A stretch of 64,000 nt of DNA from an uncultured Oscillospiraceae bacterium (GTDB lineage Bacteria; Bacillota; Clostridia; Oscillospirales; Oscillospiraceae), in contig CANQFV010000002.1 of NCBI GenBank assembly GCA_947599875.1, positions 1 through 64,000 of the forward strand, written 5' to 3'. Each line of letters opens with the position of its first letter. The first letter of the stretch is position 1. Shown piece by piece: positions 30,952 through 50,918 of this stretch. The notes below the pieces were generated by a model. It did not search any database and was not told the DNA's origin. It saw only the letters and a list, made by a program, of their open reading frames with translations. The position numbers and the translations under genes are program-made.

Positions 30952-32937
30952 TTGAACAAGAAGCCTACCCGCCGGCCGGATATCGGTTTTTATTTCTTCA
31001 TCCTGATCATACTGGTGGCGGCCATCTATCTGCTCAGCTCTCCGGAGGACACGTCCAGAGGTCTGGAGTATTCCGAGATGCGTCAGCAGTTTGTAGACGA
31101 GAACGTCCAGTACTTCACCATCGAGGACGGCGTCGTCTACATGGAGCTGAAAAAGCCCATCGACGAGGATTCCGGCACCAGCGTCTATCACGAGCTGAGG
31201 AACGAGTCCATCTTCTACAACGATCTGAACGAGGTGATCACCGACCAGTGGGAGCGTGGGATCCTGAAGTATGATCTGAAGCGGGACTATGCCACTCCCT
31301 GGTGGGTCACCATCATCCCCTATGTGATCATTATGATCGTCATGGTCATCGTCTGGTATGTGATGATGAACCGGATGGGCGCCGGAAACGGCGGCAATGC
31401 GGCGGGGCGCTTCGGTCACGCCCGCACCCGTCTGGCCTCCGAGGACAAGAAGAGGGTCACCTTCAACGATGTAGCCGGTGCCGACGAGGAGAAGGCGGAG
31501 CTTGAGGAGATCGTGGACTTTTTAAAGGATCCCCACAAGTACACGGCTCTGGGCGCCCGTATCCCCAAGGGCGTGCTGCTTGTCGGCCCTCCGGGCACAG
31601 GAAAGACGCTGCTGGCCAAGGCCGTGGCGGGGGAGGCAAACGTCCAGTTCCTCTCCATCTCCGGCTCGGACTTTGTGGAGCTTTATGTCGGCGTGGGCGC
31701 GTCCCGTGTGCGCGATCTTTTTGATCAGGCCAAGAAGCTGGCCCCCGCCATCATTTTCATTGACGAGATCGACGCGGTAGGCCGCCAGCGCGGCTCCGGT
31801 CTTGGCGGCGGTCACGACGAGCGGGAGCAGACCCTGAACCAGCTCCTGGTGGAGATGGACGGCTTTAACACAAACGAGGGCGTTATCGTCATGGCGGCCA
31901 CGAACCGGGCCGATATCCTGGACTCCGCCCTTCTCCGCTCAGGCCGCTTTGACAGGCAGGTCTTTGTGGGGATGCCTGACGTCAAGGGCCGTGAGGCCAT
32001 TTTGAGGATCCACTCCCGCGGCAAATCCCTGGGGGACGACGTGGACCTGGGGAGCATCGCCCGGGGCACCCCCGGCTTCTCCGGGGCGGATCTGGAGAAC
32101 CTGATGAACGAGGCGGCGCTTCTGGCCGCACGGGAGAACAAACCCTTTATCACCATGCCGGATGTGGACGAGGCCATTTTGAAGGTTCAGATGGGGCCGG
32201 AGAAGAAGTCCCGGAAGATGTCCGACAAGGCCCGGCGGCTCACGGCCTATCACGAGTCCGGCCACGCCATCACCGGCCTGTTCCTGAAGCATGTGGATCC
32301 GGTCCACTTCATCACCATCATCCCCCGCGGCCAGGCGGGCGGGTACACCCTGTTCAGGCCGGAGGAGGATCTGGAGAATTACCAGTCCCGTTCCGAGATG
32401 TTTGAAGACATCGTGGTGGATCTGGGCGGCAGGACGGCGGAGCGGCTGTTTTTGGACGATATCTCCACCGGAGCATCCGGGGATATCCAGGCCGCCACCA
32501 ACGTGGCGCGCTCTATGGTCACCCGCTACGGCATGAGCGACCGTCTGGGGCCCATCAGCTACGACAGCTCCGACCACTCCATCTTTATCGGCCGGGACTT
32601 CGGAACCACCAAGTCCTACTCCGAGGAGACGGCGGCCATGATCGATGAGGAGGTCAAGCACATCTTCGACGACGCCGCCAAGAAGTGCGAGGAGATCCTG
32701 ACCGAGCATAAGGACGCCCTGATCCGCTGCGCCGAGTACCTTCTGGAGCATGAGTCCATGACCGGCGAGGAGTTTAAGGCGCTGGCCCTGGACGGGGTCT
32801 ATCCCCAGGCCGGCCAGGGCGAGGAGCAGACCCCTGCGCCTGCCGCCCCGGAGGAGGACAGCCAGATCATGCGCGAGATCCGGGCCGAGGCCCTGGAGGA
32901 CGCCCGCCGCACAGAGATGGAAGAAAAACAAAAATAA
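30952..32937 (+). CDS. ftsH: ATP-dependent zinc metalloprotease FtsH
   Basis: Membrane-anchored AAA+ protease for quality control and regulated proteolysis. The 661-residue protein has two transmembrane segments (about 12-28 and 119-140) around an extracytoplasmic domain, then the AAA module with Walker A GPPGTGKT (212-219), Walker B IIFIDEID and the SRH containing ATNRAD, then the M41 protease with HESGH (434-438) as zinc site. The start appears to be TTG at 30952, giving [10 protein letters not shown], a normal N-terminus; the ribosome site is weak. It ends the gdpP-to-ftsH run and is followed by a terminator. Confidence 0.97.
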
Positions 32938-32948
32938 ATGTCTGGCGA

Positions 32949-32990
32949 AAAAGGTGTGCGGTTTCTCCGAGGAGAAACCGCACACCTTTT
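32949..32990 (+). terminator. Terminator of ftsH
   Basis: A perfect 20-base-pair inverted repeat (32949-32968 with 32971-32990) with a 2-base loop, four A at one end and four T at the other. It begins 11 bases past the ftsH stop. Confidence 0.85.
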
Positions 32991-33016
32991 CCTGCCAAGG
33001 GGGGACGGAGGCTGGC

Positions 33017-33188
33017 TTGGAAGGCCTGAAGGCCTTCCAATGCCAAGGGGATGCGTGCGAGAAAATGCCCATGAATTCTGCGGAATTCATGGGCATTTTC
33101 CCTGCTGCCGCGCTGTGCGACCAGTCTGCGGACTGGACACTTGCGCGGCAAGAGGAATTTTTTCCAAGGCGCATGTCCTTGGAAAAAA
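33017..33188 (+). ncRNA. Multi-hairpin structured element, copy A
   Basis: Four hairpins occur in a row. hp1 is 33017-33026 with 33031-33040 (loop TGAA). hp2 is 33061-33078 with 33083-33100 (18 pairs, loop TGCG). hp3 is an outer stem TGCCGCGC (33106-33113) with GCGCGGCA (33143-33150) enclosing CCAGTC-TGCG-GACTGG. hp4 is TTTTTTCCAAGG with CCTTGGAAAAAA around CGCATGT (33158-33188). The linker CAAGGGGATGCGTGCG, the joint TTTTCCCTGC and the single-stranded ACACTTGCG are shared with copy B at 48165-48331, while all stems differ and still pair. No coding frame or promoter is apparent. It may be an RNA gene, an RNA part of a longer transcript, or a mobile structured repeat; the strand is a guess. 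Confidence 0.6.
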
Positions 33189-33220: not shown

Positions 33221-33700
33221 TTTCCGTTATACGGAAGCTTTCACCCGGCGTTACAGAGGGACGGTTCTTTAGTCCCACCTGCGGTGGTACAAAAAAACCG
33301 TCCCTCAAGTCCCGCCTTTTACGGGGGCCTGGAGACGGCATACCGGGGCCCCACGCAATCGTGATTGCGTGGGGAGAGGAGGAGCGAAGTCTGCGAGTGA
33401 GCCGCGCCGCCTGCGGCGCGGGGAGCTATCGCGACTTCCGCGACGACGAAAGGAACCGTCCCCGTCGTGAGGCAATGGAGGCGCTCAGTTATCGCGGCAC
33501 GGGCCGATGAGGTCATCGGCCCCTACAAGGGGGTCCCTTACAGACTGTAGGGGCCGCCTCTCGATTTTGCACCATTGTCCGAATCACGGCATTTGGACTA
33601 TGTAGGGGCCGACGACCTCGTCGGCCCGTGTTTCGATATCCACCGAGCATCGATTCAACGCAGCTCAAACAGCACGGGCCTCCGTAGGCGGAGGCCCGTA
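33221..33700. repeat. Cluster of palindromic REP-like repeats, no gene
   Basis: This noncoding tract is packed with hairpins. Three related palindromes share the edge ACGGGCC/GGCCCGT: 33501-33522 (GGGCCGATGA-GG-TCATCGGCCC), 33606-33627 (GGGCCGACGA-CC-TCGTCGGCCC) and 33674-33699 (ACGGGCCTCCG-TAGG-CGGAGGCCCGT). The first two, with outer CCTACA/TGTAGG, are in opposite orientation. Other hairpins are at 33256-33306 (AGGGACGGTT arms with an inner CCACC/GGTGG), 33349-33374 (CCCCACGCAATC) and 33402-33421 (CCGCGCCGC). The remainder to 33785 shows no open frame with a ribosome site. Such clusters resemble REP or MITE-derived intergenic repeats. Confidence 0.7.
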
Positions 33701-45023: not shown

Positions 45024-45761
45024 ATGGAACTTGAACTGAAAAATTTAACGAAAACCTATGGCAAGCTCACGGCGCTGAACAACTTCTCCGCTGTTTTTAC
45101 CCCGGGCATCTACGGGATCCTGGGCGCCAACGGAGCGGGAAAAAGCACCATGATGAACCTGATCACGGACAATATCAAGCGGGACAGCGGCTCCATCATC
45201 TTCGACGGCGAGGAGATCCTGCAGATGGGCGACCGTTTCCGCTCCGTGTTGGGGTACATGCCTCAGCAGCAGGGGATCTATGAACACATGACGGCGGAGA
45301 GCTTCGTCACATACATCGGCAGGCTGAAGGGCCTGCGGGGCAAGGCCCTTAGCAGTGAGGTGAACAGCGTCCTGGAGCTGACGAATCTGGACAACGTGCG
45401 GCACAAAAAGGTGGGCGGCTTCTCCGGCGGTATGAAGCAGCGGGTTCTGCTGGCCCAGGCGCTTTTGGGGGATCCCAAGGTGCTGATCCTGGACGAGCCG
45501 ACGGCGGGTCTGGATCCCAGGGAGCGGGTGCGCATCCGCAATTTTATCAAGGAGCTGGCCAAAAACAGGATCGTACTGCTGGCAACGCATATCGTCAGCG
45601 ACATCGAGTCCATCGCGGATGAGGTGCTGCTGATGAAAAAGGGACAGCTGCTGCGGATGGATCCTCCGGCGGAGCTGATCGCCGCCATTCCGGATACCTG
45701 GACACCGGTGGCGTTCCGGCTGAACCTGGAGGACGTGTATCTTTACTTTTTAGGTGAATGA
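45024..45761 (+). CDS. ABC transporter ATP-binding protein (ABC-2 type)
   Basis: A 245-residue ATPase that powers the membrane protein encoded next. Walker A is GANGAGKST (about 32-40), the Q-loop is GYMPQQQGIYEHMT, the signature is FSGGMKQR, Walker B is VLILDEPTAGLDP and the switch His is in LLATHIVSD. The sequence is of the type that drives ABC-2 exporters for lantibiotics, drugs or natural products, not importers. It ends one base before the permease start. AAAGGAG lies upstream of the ATG. Confidence 0.92.
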   Translation: MELELKNLTKTYGKLTALNNFSAVFTPGIYGILGANGAGKSTMMNLITDNIKRDSGSIIFDGEEILQMGDRFRSVLGYMPQQQGIYEHMTAESFVTYIGRLKGLRGKALSSEVNSVLELTNLDNVRHKKVGGFSGGMKQRVLLAQALLGDPKVLILDEPTAGLDPRERVRIRNFIKELAKNRIVLLATHIVSDIESIADEVLLMKKGQLLRMDPPAELIAAIPDTWTPVAFRLNLEDVYLYFLGE

Positions 45762-45762
45762 T

Positions 45763-48102
45763 ATGGGCGAGTGGAAACGTGTATTTACAGATCCCCGCAG
45801 GATCGGGGCTGTGGTGCTGATCCTTCTGCTGTCGGCCGCTTTCTTCCTGGTGGGAAAAATGGATTTCTTCGGCCGCGGCTCCATTACGTCCCTTACGGAC
45901 GGGGAGGCCTACTATTCCCACCTGACGGAAAGGTTCCGGGGGAAGGATCTTGATGAGATCGGCACCATTCTGAATGACGAAGCTGAGCTGTTGAACAGCT
46001 ATCATATGCAGCTTATGGGCGTGGAGGATCTGATGACTTTCCCCCCGGAGGAGGTGGCGGCGTGGATCGCGGAGGATCCCCTTCTCTCCTCCGTCTCCGA
46101 CCTTGACGATGAGCTGAAGCTGAATATCGTCAGAACGCTGGAGAACCGCGTCGCGGAGCTGACGGAGGAGCTGGAGTACATCCAGGGGTACGACGCGTAC
46201 ATTGAGGGCGTCCAGGAGCAGGCGAGGCTCCAGTCCCAGACGGCGCTGTTCAAGGACGAGAACACCTTTGTACATAGGAACCTGGTGAAAACGGCGGAGG
46301 AATTCGCCACGATGCGGGGCATCCAGGTGGAATTTGGCGCCAACCGGGGCATCCAGCAGTGGGTGGAATTTGAGCTGGCGGATTACCTGTATCTGCTGTT
46401 GATCATACTCTTTGTCTTCTCCTTCCTCCAGGAGCGGAAGGCGGGACTCTGGGGAATCATCCGGGACACCAGGGGCGGACGGTGGCGTATGGGCGTCCAC
46501 CGGGCGGCTATATTGGCCGTTGTATCCGTCGGAGGGGTGGCGCTGATCTTCGGCTCCAACCTTCTGATCTCCCTGTCCCTCTCCGGAGGTTGGGAGGACA
46601 TGGGCAGGAGCGTCCAATCCCTGGAGATCTTCCGGACGCTGACCTACCACATCACCGTGGGCGAGTGGATCGCCCAGTACCTGCTGCTGAAGGCGGCGTC
46701 GGGCTTTATGGTGGGGCTTTTCCTGTGGTGCCTGCTGGGGTCTATTTCCAGTGTGCAGTTCTCCCTGTCTGTGCTGTGCGTGACGCTGGCGGCGGAGTAC
46801 GCCCTCTTTGCCTTCCTGCCCGTGCAGAGCATCCTCAACCCGTTGAAGTATTTCAACATTTTCTCCTACATCCGCACATCCAAGCTCTATACTGAGTATC
46901 TGAACATTGACCTGTTCGGCTATCCCTTTGGGAGCAGGCGGCTGGCCCTGATCTGGCTGCCCATCTTCGCGGGGTGCTTCCTGACCTGGGCCATTTTGCT
47001 CCAGCATTTCAGACGGCCCGAGGGAAACAGGAGCCTCCTCCCCTTCCTGGCAAACATGTGGAACAAGTTCCTGGACTTCTTCCGGCGGCATTTCACCATA
47101 GGCGGGTGGGAGCTGTACAAGACCTTGTTCTATCAGAAGGTGCTGATCATCCTCCTGGTCATCCTGGTGGCCAGCGGGTCGTTGAACTTTATCCGATACA
47201 GCAGGACCCTGAGCAATGACAGCTGGTACGACGCGTACATGACGGATCTTCAGGGGCCGCTTGACGACGAGTACACCGATGCCTACCTCACCCTGGCGCG
47301 CTCCAAGGCTGAGGAAAACCCTGAGCTTCTCTCGGCCATTGACCGGGTGGAGGCTCGGGTGGAGACCCTGCGTGACCGGGCGGAGCAGGGCGGATACCAA
47401 CCGTGGATCGTGTCGTCCACAGATCCCTATGACAGCATCATGGGGGATCCCAGTCAGGATCTCCAGCACCTTAATGCGGCCTTCTCAATGGTCTTTATCG
47501 CCCTCTGCTGCGCCGCCATGTGGGCCTATGAGCAGCAGTCGGGCGTGGTGTACATGCTCCGCTCCCTCAAGGGTGGACGCGGGGGCGTCCTCCGCCGGAA
47601 GCTGCTGTGCGCTCTGGTCATGACGGCGCTGGTTTGGGCGGCGGTGTATGTGCGGGAGTTTCAGGCCTTCGCCAAGTTCTTCCACCCCACCGATATTGCC
47701 TCGCCCTTAGGGAATTTCGACAAATTCCAGCGCGCCCCCTTCCCCGGGATGACGATGGGACAACTCATGGCGGTGGTCTATACGGCCAGATTTGTTATGC
47801 TGTTCCTGGTGGCGATGATGGTCATGTTCATCAGTGAACACTCCCCCACGGTGGAGGCATCCTACATCCTGAATCTGGTGATCCTCGGCCTGCCGGCTAT
47901 CCTCTACGCGCTGGGGATCGAATTCCTGGGCTATCTCTCACCGGTGGAGGCCGTCTCCGCCGCCGAGGGCTTCTGGACGCTGGCCACCTCTGGCCAGTAC
48001 AAGGGGCTGATCCCCCTGGCTGTCTGGGCTGTGGTTGGGATCGCGGCGCTGATCCTGAACTGCCGGAAATGGGTGAAAACAGGCTCCGGTGTCCGGGCCT
48101 GA
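45763..48102 (+). CDS. Large two-half ABC-2 permease
   Basis: A 779-residue membrane protein that looks like two fused ABC-2 permease halves. Each half starts with one transmembrane helix (about 14-32 and about 462-480), followed by a large extracytoplasmic domain (about 35-205, with a helical stretch VRTLENRVAELTEELEYIQ; and about 485-590) and then about five more helices. It contains no ATPase and pairs with the ATP-binding protein directly upstream. The cargo is unknown; the lipoproteins in the same operon are candidates for associated factors. The ATG at 45763 has AGGTGA 5 bases upstream; a GTG nine bases earlier is an alternative. Confidence 0.8.
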   Translation: MGEWKRVFTDPRRIGAVVLILLLSAAFFLVGKMDFFGRGSITSLTDGEAYYSHLTERFRGKDLDEIGTILNDEAELLNSYHMQLMGVEDLMTFPPEEVAAWIAEDPLLSSVSDLDDELKLNIVRTLENRVAELTEELEYIQGYDAYIEGVQEQARLQSQTALFKDENTFVHRNLVKTAEEFATMRGIQVEFGANRGIQQWVEFELADYLYLLLIILFVFSFLQERKAGLWGIIRDTRGGRWRMGVHRAAILAVVSVGGVALIFGSNLLISLSLSGGWEDMGRSVQSLEIFRTLTYHITVGEWIAQYLLLKAASGFMVGLFLWCLLGSISSVQFSLSVLCVTLAAEYALFAFLPVQSILNPLKYFNIFSYIRTSKLYTEYLNIDLFGYPFGSRRLALIWLPIFAGCFLTWAILLQHFRRPEGNRSLLPFLANMWNKFLDFFRRHFTIGGWELYKTLFYQKVLIILLVILVASGSLNFIRYSRTLSNDSWYDAYMTDLQGPLDDEYTDAYLTLARSKAEENPELLSAIDRVEARVETLRDRAEQGGYQPWIVSSTDPYDSIMGDPSQDLQHLNAAFSMVFIALCCAAMWAYEQQSGVVYMLRSLKGGRGGVLRRKLLCALVMTALVWAAVYVREFQAFAKFFHPTDIASPLGNFDKFQRAPFPGMTMGQLMAVVYTARFVMLFLVAMMVMFISEHSPTVEASYILNLVILGLPAILYALGIEFLGYLSPVEAVSAAEGFWTLATSGQYKGLIPLAVWAVVGIAALILNCRKWVKTGSGVRA

Positions 48103-48118
48103 GCTTCCGTCATCTGAA

Positions 48119-48153
48119 ACAACCCCCCGCAGGCTTCGCCTGCGGGGGGTTGT
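48119..48153 (+). terminator. Strong hairpin ending the lipoprotein/ABC-2 operon
   Basis: A perfect 16-base-pair stem (ACAACCCCCCGCAGGC with its complement) and loop TTC. The right flank is TTGT rather than a long T-run, so termination strength is uncertain. Its core GCAGGCTTCGCCTGC recurs at 48360-48396. Confidence 0.7.
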
Positions 48154-48164
48154 CAGCCTGTCGA

Positions 48165-48331
48165 AAAAGCCCTGCGGGCTTTTCCGGCAAAGGGGAACGT
48201 GCGGGAAATTTCTCTGAATTTTGCGAAATTCAGAGAATTTTCCCTGCCGTCACGCTGCGCGCACGGCCCGGAGGGCCGTACACTTGCGTGACAAAAGGGA
48301 TTTTTTCCGACGCACATGTCGCCGGAAAAAA
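48165..48331 (+). ncRNA. Multi-hairpin structured element, copy B
   Basis: This copy has the same order of parts as copy A at 33017-33188. hp1 is AAAAGCCC-TGC-GGGCTTTT. The linker is GCAAAGGGGAACGTGCG. hp2 (48203-48221 with 48226-48244) has 18 of 19 positions paired and loop TGCG. The joint TTTTCCCTGC follows. hp3 is an outer stem GTCACGC/GCGTGAC enclosing ACGGCCC-GGA-GGGCCGT and ACACTTGCG. hp4 is TTTTTTCCG/CGGAAAAAA around a CACATGT loop. Stems differ from copy A in sequence but remain paired. It fills most of the 341-base gap between convergent transcription units and is bracketed by two palindromes with the same core. Confidence 0.6.
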
Positions 48332-48359
48332 GTTTGAACTTGCGTTTTTTGACAAACTG

Positions 48360-48396
48360 AACAAACACCCGCAGGCTTCGCCTGCGGGTGTTTGTT
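48360..48396 (-). terminator. Hairpin after the ABC-FtsX gene
   Basis: AACAAACACCCGCAGGC pairs with its complement around loop TTC. It shares the core CCCGCAGGCTTCGCCTGCGGG with the hairpin at 48119-48153. On the minus strand it lies 48 bases past the stop codon at 48444. Confidence 0.65.
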
Positions 48397-48443: not shown

Positions 48444-50918
48444 TTATTCGTACTTTGCCGCGAGTCTGGCGGGAGGCAGGCGGAGGACGGACATCAGCGG
48501 CAGGACGGAGGCGATCAGGAAGAAGACCACGATCCCCAGTACCGTCAGCGCCGCGGCATACCAGGGCAGCAGGATCTGATCGGCCACGGTGGTGAGCAGA
48601 TGGAGCGCCTCCACCGAACCCCAGGTGAGGAGGGCGGCGGGAATGACGGCGGTGAGGGAGGAGAAAAACGCCTCCATCATAAAGATGAAGTACAGCTTCC
48701 TGCCGGGGATGCCCAGCAGACGGTACACGGCCACCAGACCCAGCCGGTCACGAACCTGCGTCCGGCACAAAAGGTAGAGCATGACCATGCACAGAGCCAT
48801 CACCGTGGCGGTGACGATGCTGCGGGCATTCAGGCGGACGGAGGCGGCCTCCTCAAACTGCATACGCTGCTCCCCGTACCTGTCCGTCACCTCAACGATG
48901 ATGGAATTGTCCGGATAATCCCTGGCGAACTTCTGAGCAAAGGCCATCGTGGCGGGCTTATCCTGGCAATAGATCTGGAAGTTGTCAAACAGGACGGTGA
49001 GATAGCGGTAATCGATGCCCTCGTCGCTGAGGATCACCGCGTAGTGGGGGTCGTCGATATGGATCACATCCTTGATGAGATACCGAGGGCCGCTTCCGCC
49101 GGGCCGGTACAGTCCGCCACGGCTGGTCTCCCAGGAGGAGCCGGCGACGGTGGCGTTCAGCAGGCACTCGTCCCTCCCCAGGGTCACGTCGTCGTACTCC
49201 CCGGGGTAGAGGGCCTGCAGCTCTTTCAGGGACAGGATCCTGGCGTTGCCGTTGCACAGGGCCAGCAGGGCGCTCTTGGAGATGTACGCCGTTCTGGCGC
49301 CGCTGTCCGCGACGCCGCAAATGGTCACGGAGTAGGAGCGGTTCATGATCTGGACCTCCGCGCCCACGAAATCCTGAAGCGTCACGACGCCGTTCAGGGC
49401 GATGCTGTCGGATTCCAGCATGATTTCCAGCACCTGACGGTCAACTACCATCTCGTAGTTTTTCTCCGGCATCCGGCCATAGATGAGGGTGGCGGGATCC
49501 AGACGGTCCGCCGACGCCCAGCACATGGCGGAGGGGAACTCCAGGGTGAAATCCTCCAGCTGGAAGAAGAGGTTGGAGGTGTACAGGCATCTTCCGGTGA
49601 TGTGGGGGATGAAGTCCACCTCAAGCCCCTCTTCCTTCAGGGCCTGATCAAAATCCACGGCGAATTGCAGCTCCTGCTCGGTTATCTCCCCGCGTAAGCT
49701 CCCCCCGCGTCTGATGTCCACCATGAGCATGTGGGGGTCGGAGGTGAGGAAGTCCCGGGGATCGATGTTGGCCAGCTTGATATAATCCCCCGCCGTCAAC
49801 AGGATCAGGACGGTGAGCAGGACAAGGAACGCGGCCGTACCCACGCGGCGGATCTTTCCGTCCTTTCTCAGGCGCCAGGCCTCCCGCACCATCATGGGCA
49901 GGGTGATGCCCTTTCCGGGGCGGGCGGGGGCGGCGGGGGCCTCCCGGAACATCTCCATCGTGTCACCCTCCCCGGCCTTGTCCACGTCGGCAAGGTCCAC
50001 GGTGGGTCTCTTCCCCTCCACGAGGGTGGGGACTTCCTCCGGTTTTCCCACGGTGACGGCGCGTTTGTCCGAGATCTTCAGCACGATGCGGTCCCGCAGC
50101 ACCGCCACCGTGAGTTCGGTGGGCGGGGCGCCAGGCTCCCGCAGGACTCTCAGCGTGGCAAGGCCGTTCTCCGGCCGCTCCTCCTCCAGCTCCCCGGTGT
50201 AAATGGTGGATCCGGTGGAGGCCGTAAGGCCGCCCCGCTCCCAGCTGTCCCGGTCGGAGGTGACATACCCGTCGGACAGGGTGATGATCCGGTCGGCAAA
50301 GAACCGGGCGATGCTCTCCTCATGCGTCACCATGACGACCAGGCTCTCCCTGGAGGCGCGGCGCAGAAGGGTGCAGACGGCGCGGGTGTTCTCCTCGTCC
50401 AAGTTCCCCGTTGGCTCGTCGGCGAAGATCACCCGGGGCCTCCTGGCCAGGGCGCGGGCGATAGCCACGCGCTGCTGCTGGCCGCCGGAAAGCTCCTCCA
50501 CCTTGCGGTGGATGTACCGCTCCATATCCACGGCCCGGAGGGCGGTCCTGACCCGCTGGATCTTCTGGGCGTGGGAGAGGCCCAGGCAGTGGAGACCCAT
50601 ATACACGTTGTAGGCCACGCTGTGATCCGGCAGGAGGTAGTAGTTCTGAAAAATGTACCCGAAATTCCGGTCCCGGGCAAGCTCAAAGGCCTTGACGCCG
50701 TACTTTGTCACCGACACGCCGTCCACCGTCAGCCTGCCGCTGTCAAAGGTGTCCAGTCCGCCGATGGCGTTGAGAAGGCTGGTCTTTCCGCAGCCGGAGG
50801 GGCCGAGGATGCACACAAAGCCCCGATCCGGCAGGGTGATCGTCACGTCATGCAGAACGGTATTGGCCGTGCGGGTGCGGCGATCGTAGGTTTTGGTGAG
50901 TTTGTTTACTTCGATCAT
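48444..50918 (-). CDS. ABC transporter, N-terminal ATPase fused to FtsX-like permease
   Basis: An 824-residue fusion of the MacB type. Residues 1-225 are the ATPase: Walker A GPSGCGKTS (about 40), signature LSGGQQQRVAIARAL, Walker B VIFADEPTGNLD, and H-loop VMVTHEESIA. After a linker comes a transmembrane segment (about 367-385), a large extracytoplasmic domain (about 390-660) and three C-terminal helices with the FtsX pattern (ATVMALCMVMLYLL, PAALLTWGSVEALHLL, LTVLGIVVFFLIASVLPL). Its start overlaps the stop of the similar gene upstream by four bases, so the two probably form one heterodimeric transporter. Relatives move peptides or lipoproteins, or act as mechanotransmission machines. The substrate is unknown. 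Confidence 0.85.
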   Translation of the reverse strand: MIEVNKLTKTYDRRTRTANTVLHDVTITLPDRGFVCILGPSGCGKTSLLNAIGGLDTFDSGRLTVDGVSVTKYGVKAFELARDRNFGYIFQNYYLLPDHSVAYNVYMGLHCLGLSHAQKIQRVRTALRAVDMERYIHRKVEELSGGQQQRVAIARALARRPRVIFADEPTGNLDEENTRAVCTLLRRASRESLVVMVTHEESIARFFADRIITLSDGYVTSDRDSWERGGLTASTGSTIYTGELEEERPENGLATLRVLREPGAPPTELTVAVLRDRIVLKISDKRAVTVGKPEEVPTLVEGKRPTVDLADVDKAGEGDTMEMFREAPAAPARPGKGITLPMMVREAWRLRKDGKIRRVGTAAFLVLLTVLILLTAGDYIKLANIDPRDFLTSDPHMLMVDIRRGGSLRGEITEQELQFAVDFDQALKEEGLEVDFIPHITGRCLYTSNLFFQLEDFTLEFPSAMCWASADRLDPATLIYGRMPEKNYEMVVDRQVLEIMLESDSIALNGVVTLQDFVGAEVQIMNRSYSVTICGVADSGARTAYISKSALLALCNGNARILSLKELQALYPGEYDDVTLGRDECLLNATVAGSSWETSRGGLYRPGGSGPRYLIKDVIHIDDPHYAVILSDEGIDYRYLTVLFDNFQIYCQDKPATMAFAQKFARDYPDNSIIVEVTDRYGEQRMQFEEAASVRLNARSIVTATVMALCMVMLYLLCRTQVRDRLGLVAVYRLLGIPGRKLYFIFMMEAFFSSLTAVIPAALLTWGSVEALHLLTTVADQILLPWYAAALTVLGIVVFFLIASVLPLMSVLRLPPARLAAKYE

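Follow-up and report, generated by a model that had tools for sequence, protein, structure and literature searches.

A hairpin-rich repeat of Oscillospiraceae, probably a MITE moved by IS1182-family transposases, lies between duplicated terminator stem-loops

Introduction

The closest described counterparts of the arrangement reported here are found in the IS1182 family of mobile elements. IS1272 and TnSha1 from Staphylococcus rely on an IS1182-family transposase, possess inverted-repeat ends (TIRs) of about 16 bp and target inverted-repeat stem-loops including terminators without any sequence consensus (PMC5678879, PMC4923244). Insertion of IS1272, the best-studied IS1182 member, removes the stem-loop and leaves no target duplication (PMC5678879, PMC4923244). 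A different outcome is contained in hypothetical pathway b of Figure 13 in Wan et al. (2017), in which the entire stem-loop would become duplicated if joining took place at the 5' foot (PMC5678879). Some IS1182 members were reported to target palindromes by Siguier et al. (2015), as cited in PMC4923244, and this target preference is therefore already known. When the literature was searched for IS1182 in combination with palindrome, MITE, terminator or cruciform, only the IS1272 papers proved relevant; for some IS1182 members, long direct repeats may already be recorded in ISfinder.

A second group for comparison is provided by small bacterial repeats. MITEs such as Correia, RUP, BOX and QMITE (PMC10969869) resemble the element studied here in being short, intergenic and present in high copy number, in lacking a transposase and in having TIRs and secondary structure. 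They differ in their short target-site duplication of fixed length, whereas in our case a terminator hairpin of 17-40 bp is duplicated whole, and the present element is also set apart by its four individual hairpins, joined by conserved linkers, and by its heavy covariation. The MITE review (PMC10969869) makes no mention of the word IS1182. SPRITEs are likewise small interspersed repeats linked to terminators (per PMC10969869), but going by their description they are themselves terminator-like, while the element analyzed here inserts into terminators.

The DNA considered in this work, termed the window, comprises the first 64,000 nucleotides of contig CANQFV010000002.1 from an uncultured Oscillospiraceae bacterium (GCA_947599875.1). 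An initial annotation had drawn attention to a noncoding four-hairpin element occurring twice in this stretch and had put forward a small RNA, a 3'-UTR RNA or a structured mobile repeat as explanations. The last of these options is borne out by TIRs, target duplications, high copy number and an IS family with matching ends. We conclude that the element is very probably a non-autonomous DNA transposon (MITE) that is moved in trans by IS1182-family DDE transposases and has the palindrome of terminators as its target.

Results

Both copies, each with four hairpins and conserved linkers, are present where they had been placed, and a covariance model derived from 30 copies of the same genome recovers them on the plus strand at 33014-33188 (copy A, 152.2 bits) and 48160-48331 (copy B, 207.8 bits). 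Their folds have stability z-scores of -8.9 (copy A) and -4.5 (copy B), with none of 200 shuffled sequences being equally stable. The statement that the element occurs twice is correct inside the window but not genome-wide, as the covariance model search detects at least 150 copies in the 2.73-Mb genome. The full unit of copy B exceeds the borders originally given, reaching out to TIRs (48154, 48359) and to duplicated terminator hairpins beyond them.

Copy B is a complete MITE of 206 bp on the plus strand (48154..48359, left TIR to right TIR), as judged from its TIRs, the flanking duplications and the covariance model match. Of the 15 bases of the left TIR CAGCCTGTCGAAAAA (48154..48168, plus strand), 12-14 recur in the TIRs of those IS1182 copies that were used for comparison, and the right TIR TTTTTTGACAAACTG (48345..48359, minus strand; reverse complement CAGTTTGTCAAAAAA) is identical in 15 of 15 positions with both ends of the IS1182 copy at locus L277. 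Adjoining the TIRs are two complete terminator stem-loops without assigned strand, AACAACCCCCCGCAGGCTTCGCCTGCGGGGGGTTGT on the left (48118..48153) and AACAAACACCCGCAGGCTTCGCCTGCGGGTGTTTGT on the right (48360..48395, terminator-like by score). Both comprise 36 bp, 32 of which are identical, and the four differences represent two compensating pairs. Within the element, all on the plus strand, hairpin 1 (48159..48189; RNAalifold and covariance model structure) overlaps the left TIR and is followed by hairpin 2 with its strongly conserved tip TGAATTTTGCGAAATTCA (48201..48247), the nested hairpin 3 with the outer stem GTCACGC/GCGTGAC (48249..48292) and hairpin 4 with the CATGT loop region (48301..48331), the latter three being defined by structure and covariation. 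According to the ORF list, a membrane-protein gene for a putative ABC-transporter permease (45754..48102, plus strand) ends just before copy B, and a convergent ABC transporter ATPase/permease gene (48444..50918, minus strand) ends just after it.

Copy A (33014..33188, plus strand; covariance model match and flanks) is diverged and resides downstream of ftsH (30952..32937, plus strand; ORF list), a gene whose 3' terminator site has been entered by the element and by IS1182 in sister species. Fold and covariance model place its hairpin 1 at 33014..33044, hairpin 2 at 33061..33100, the nested hairpin 3 at 33106..33150 and hairpin 4 at 33158..33188, all on the plus strand. The flanks of copy A contain no recognisable TIR and no flanking duplication, which counts against the favoured explanation, and its right side is joined to other repeats. 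At 33257-33463 a second repeat with the inverted bounds GGGACGGTTC / GAACCGTCCC is apparent, parts of which (33345-33450) recur many times in genomes of the same genus; it is probably another small mobile repeat family. On the other side, the stretch 32942-33050 contains an extra module resembling hairpin 1 (CTGGCGAAAAAGG...CCTTTTCCTGCCAAGGGG) ahead of copy A's own hairpin 1, a doubling that suggests decayed tandem or nested insertions. Self-nesting was also encountered at locus L002, where one copy is located inside the apparent hairpin 1 of another, diverged copy and is accompanied by the duplication AGGCCGCAAAGCGGCCT.

The closest matches to copy B are 98%, 97% and 96% identical and lie at unlinked places, and spread of the element was therefore recent. 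In a survey of 60 genomes (E<=0.001), matches were obtained from 31, nearly all of the same genus, and most species of this genus carry the element; where matches carry a name, they belong to uncultured Oscillospiraceae of the 'Lapin' metagenome series. A survey of 295 genomes of the order yielded matches in 28 genomes representing 15 of 148 genera. These distant relatives are mostly shorter and have kept parts resembling hairpins 1, 3 and 4, behind which there is often another hairpin together with a right end that is related, and hairpin duplication is present in a distant relative too (L417). The initial annotation could not assign the element to an RNA class, and in fact no Rfam family covers it at either gathering or relaxed thresholds; for the whole window, Rfam returned only a tRNA elsewhere and chance-level matches. 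A plasmid collection contained no match to the element, and a phage collection gave a single partial match of 60 bp in an unannotated record.

When copies were aligned together with their flanks, similarity began at CAGCCTGTCGAAAAA and ended at TTTTTTGACAAACTG, which are imperfect inverted repeats of one another; intact copies bear the TIRs TCAGCCTGTCGAAAAA / TTTTTTGACAAACTGA. The 15-bp TIRs of copy B and other intact copies, the lack of a transposase gene and a length of 206 bp, well below 1 kb, are all features of MITEs, as is the target-site duplication that is recognizable as flush direct repeats in 41 of 216 copies (copy A not among them). Outside the TIRs, a terminator hairpin is found that is the same on both sides of a given locus and differs between loci. 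Flanking direct repeats with a score of at least 14 occur in 17.1% of 216 distinct copies compared with 0.17% of mismatched pairs, for which left and right flanks were taken from different copies. Complete stem-loops (hairpins of at least 7 pairs) make up 38 of the 41 flush repeats, as opposed to 1.6% in shuffled repeats; the repeat edges are usually 0-3 nt off the hairpin feet, and the duplications span 17-40 bp (median, 30 bp). In a few copies the duplication is short and forms no hairpin (for example GACATGTT in L186 and GATAAGGAGGAAA in L027). A detectable duplication is kept in only about one fifth of the copies, which counts against the favoured explanation. At L246, L254 and L358, and possibly at L259, the loops of the two flanking hairpin copies are reverse complementary to each other, suggesting that palindromes in these genomes undergo fold-back or inversion events during or after insertion.

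Transposases of the IS1182 family are encoded in 12 of 34 genomes of the same genus, and those from L270, L277 and L276 attain 380-440 bits against NF033551 (cut-off 270; E 1e-113 to 1e-131). All seven IS1182 copies from this genus with resolved borders duplicate a whole palindrome of 21-31 bp, for example TGGCGGCTCCCCTCTCCGAGGGGAGCCGCCA (L270) and ACAGGTCCGGCATTTCAAATGCCGGACCTGT (L277); the remaining copies in the genus are shortened or gave unclear borders. A MITE shares its ends with an autonomous element, and the IS1182 elements of sister species provide such ends with up to 15 of 15 identical TIR positions. This similarity is confined to the terminal 15 bp or so, which counts against the favoured explanation. 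Stem-loops of 22-35 bp are also duplicated by IS1182 copies belonging to other families (L349, L350, L353, L374) and by one of the same family in another genus (L358). Where the ends of IS1182 copies are different (L359, L362, L364, L377), the duplications are non-palindromic and 7-9 bp long. The whole-stem-loop mode is therefore that of a subgroup whose ends start with CAG or CAA. In the 89-contig draft genome from which the window derives, no IS1182 transposase was detected, whether the query was PF13751, NF033551 or the transposase of L277, and this counts against the favoured explanation; its copies are therefore perhaps now immobile, or the IS may have been lost in assembly gaps. A search of this genome for an IS with such ends, using the right TIR, gave matches of which those inspected could be explained as MITE termini, as shortened derivatives or as chance similarity within genes.

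An empty site is available for the IS itself. Locus L428 (genome G017) has one hairpin where L277 has hairpin, IS and hairpin, and the aligned flank is 97% identical. Insertion of the IS into hairpin loops, to which inverted flanks had pointed, was ruled out by longer flanks showing complete hairpins on both sides. The 3' end of ftsH carries just one terminator in several species (L320, L321, L332), while L334 has a terminator-MITE-terminator arrangement and L333 (genome G005) has the same succession with an IS1182 left end after it. In L333, this IS1182 end directly abuts the second terminator copy made by the MITE, and duplicated hairpins can therefore serve as new targets.

These sites bear on the idea that the paired terminators predate the insertion, one belonging to each convergent gene, with the element having landed between them. 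Copy B lies between convergent genes, both of which require a terminator, and this would agree with the idea, but the hairpins match within a locus, differ between loci and almost never match in mismatched pairs. For the IS, the single hairpin at L428 refutes a pre-existing pair, and the single terminator behind ftsH in several species as against two in L334 also contradicts it, such that we consider this scenario highly unlikely. We attach just as little probability to derivation from another mobile class, that is an IS1272-type stem-loop replacer, a REP/BIME or a group IIC intron. All of these are tied to hairpins or terminators and IS1272 is an IS1182-family member too, yet IS1272 deletes the stem-loop (PMC5678879, PMC4923244) that is duplicated here, and the L277/L428 pair rules out replacement as the main mode. 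REP/BIME elements, hairpins with a GTAG-type motif and a REP-associated tyrosine transposase, were set aside because TIRs plus target duplications do not suit them, and the same combination is unsuited to an intron derivative. Group IIC introns insert after terminator stem-loops without target duplication and have intron RNA domains; here, a target duplication is present and Rfam gave no group II intron match.

Almost all copies with enough flank (171 of 172) reside outside long ORFs. With genes called by ORF length only, which renders the context counts approximate, 48 copies are located between convergent and 20 between divergent genes. Between co-directional neighbours, the plus strand of the element follows the direction of the genes in a ratio of 51:20 (29:11 in the own genome, 22:9 in others). 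Simple insertion into palindromes would not predict this bias, which counts against the favoured explanation; the element may prefer to have hairpin 1 beside the end of the upstream gene.

The compensating stem changes described in the initial annotation are real. Double changes affect 22 of 47 pairs among 30 own-genome copies and 35 of 47 among 101 distinct copies, and in the latter set 97.1% of the cells are paired compared with 82.7% after shuffling and at most 50.7% after sliding. Taking changes on both sides of the stems as a sign of selection for RNA finds no support in the mismatches. True RNA helices accept G.U far more readily than A.C, while compensatory stem changes are likewise expected for a DNA palindrome. 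With the weak inner part of hairpin 3 and one loop-closing pair omitted, the element exhibits 35 G.U and 59 A.C cells (22 versus 23 pair types), whereas RNase P RNA from the same genus, serving as a control, exhibits 73 and 9 (22 versus 5 types). A Fisher test on pair types gives p = 0.007 for element versus RNase P; since the copies are related, cell counts overstate significance and type counts are safer. As G.U is not above A.C, pairing is retained equally on the two strands of the DNA and not as single-strand RNA, that is to say at the DNA level or via a strand-symmetric mutational process. For the internal hairpins, this could mean either that DNA hairpins are under selection or that fold-back template correction takes place.

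A structured RNA family, be it a small RNA or a 3'-UTR RNA, that is repeated by chance and selected on the plus-strand transcript would explain strong covariation, conserved linkers and loop, the fold z-scores and a plus strand that is co-directional with the upstream gene beyond expectation. We nevertheless regard it as improbable: in addition to the G.U to A.C relation, copies A and B were searched for a promoter-like site and neither has one, Rfam has no match, and TIRs and target duplications are transposon features. Given the orientation relative to the upstream gene, an RNA-level effect may exist in some copies. A related proposal, compatible with the element being a MITE, is that it later came under selection for acting at the RNA level, as a 3' end that terminates transcription. 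Location at gene ends, the orientation bias, an A-run/T-run as the stem of hairpin 1 and terminator-like matches in copy B at hairpin 4 (minus strand) and hairpin 2 (plus strand) would all be in line with such a function. However, the number of terminator-like matches inside the element is near shuffle expectation, hairpin 1 itself receives no terminator score and pairing is strand-symmetric, which makes this role rather unlikely, if less so than an RNA family from the outset.

Discussion

The non-autonomous transposon that we favour as an explanation would be mobilized as follows. DDE transposases of the IS1182 family would recognise the 15-bp inverted-repeat ends of the MITE, and what they target would be DNA structure, in the form of an intrinsic terminator's palindrome in an extruded or hairpin-prone state. 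The transposase would join the 3' ends of the element at the 5' foot of each palindrome arm, and gap repair would copy the intervening strand on both sides, with the consequence that the whole stem-loop flanks the insert twice. What the data show are the TIRs, the duplication of entire stem-loops, an IS family with corresponding ends and one pair of empty and occupied sites for the IS; movement of the MITE by an IS1182 transposase and the chemistry at the hairpin feet are what we infer. The element resembles IS1272 and TnSha1 in its presumed IS1182 partner, in TIRs of similar size and in stem-loops or terminators as targets; it differs from them in duplicating the whole stem-loop and in being devoid of a transposase.

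Our loci fit the second pathway of Wan et al. (2017), which, in the available text of that paper, is a drawn possibility without an example (PMC5678879). The natural insertions described here, including one clean pair of empty and occupied sites, provide evidence for whole stem-loop duplication, previously only drawn as an option in the 2017 IS1272 model, and they stem from IS1182 copies of several families as well as from a high-copy MITE. Our contribution lies in whole stem-loop duplication with an empty site, a MITE family using such duplication, and evidence that its covariation is not RNA-like. The findings also suggest how at least 150 copies could be reached with little damage, namely by an element that lands in terminators and has a hairpin on either side afterwards. 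Furthermore, our findings hold a warning for RNA discovery, as palindromic DNA that is repeated can covary very strongly. DNA palindromes can be told from RNA by a simple test, in which the balance of G.U and A.C mismatches is set against that of a true RNA in the same genomes.

A more far-reaching idea can be offered only tentatively, and we would not expect it to be correct in full: a whole branch of IS1182 transposases may read DNA shape instead of sequence and attack the 5' feet of extruded palindromes, and the order-wide MITE family fed by it may have kept its hairpins as working DNA structures. If this were true, each flanking gene would retain a terminator hairpin after duplication of the whole palindrome, the hairpins of the MITE could, for instance, offer sites where later insertions land or serve as substrates of transposition, and the covariation would be a DNA-level signature that current methods would mistake for an RNA family.

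Two minor observations concern the RNase P RNA gene. In several species of the same genus (L396-L402) the RNase P RNA matches are about 100 nt longer than usual (434-457 versus about 335-355 nt), and these extra nucleotides are unaccounted for by the element model. At L391, L393 and L394, copies of the element adjoin the RNase P RNA gene, within about 50 nt of the match.
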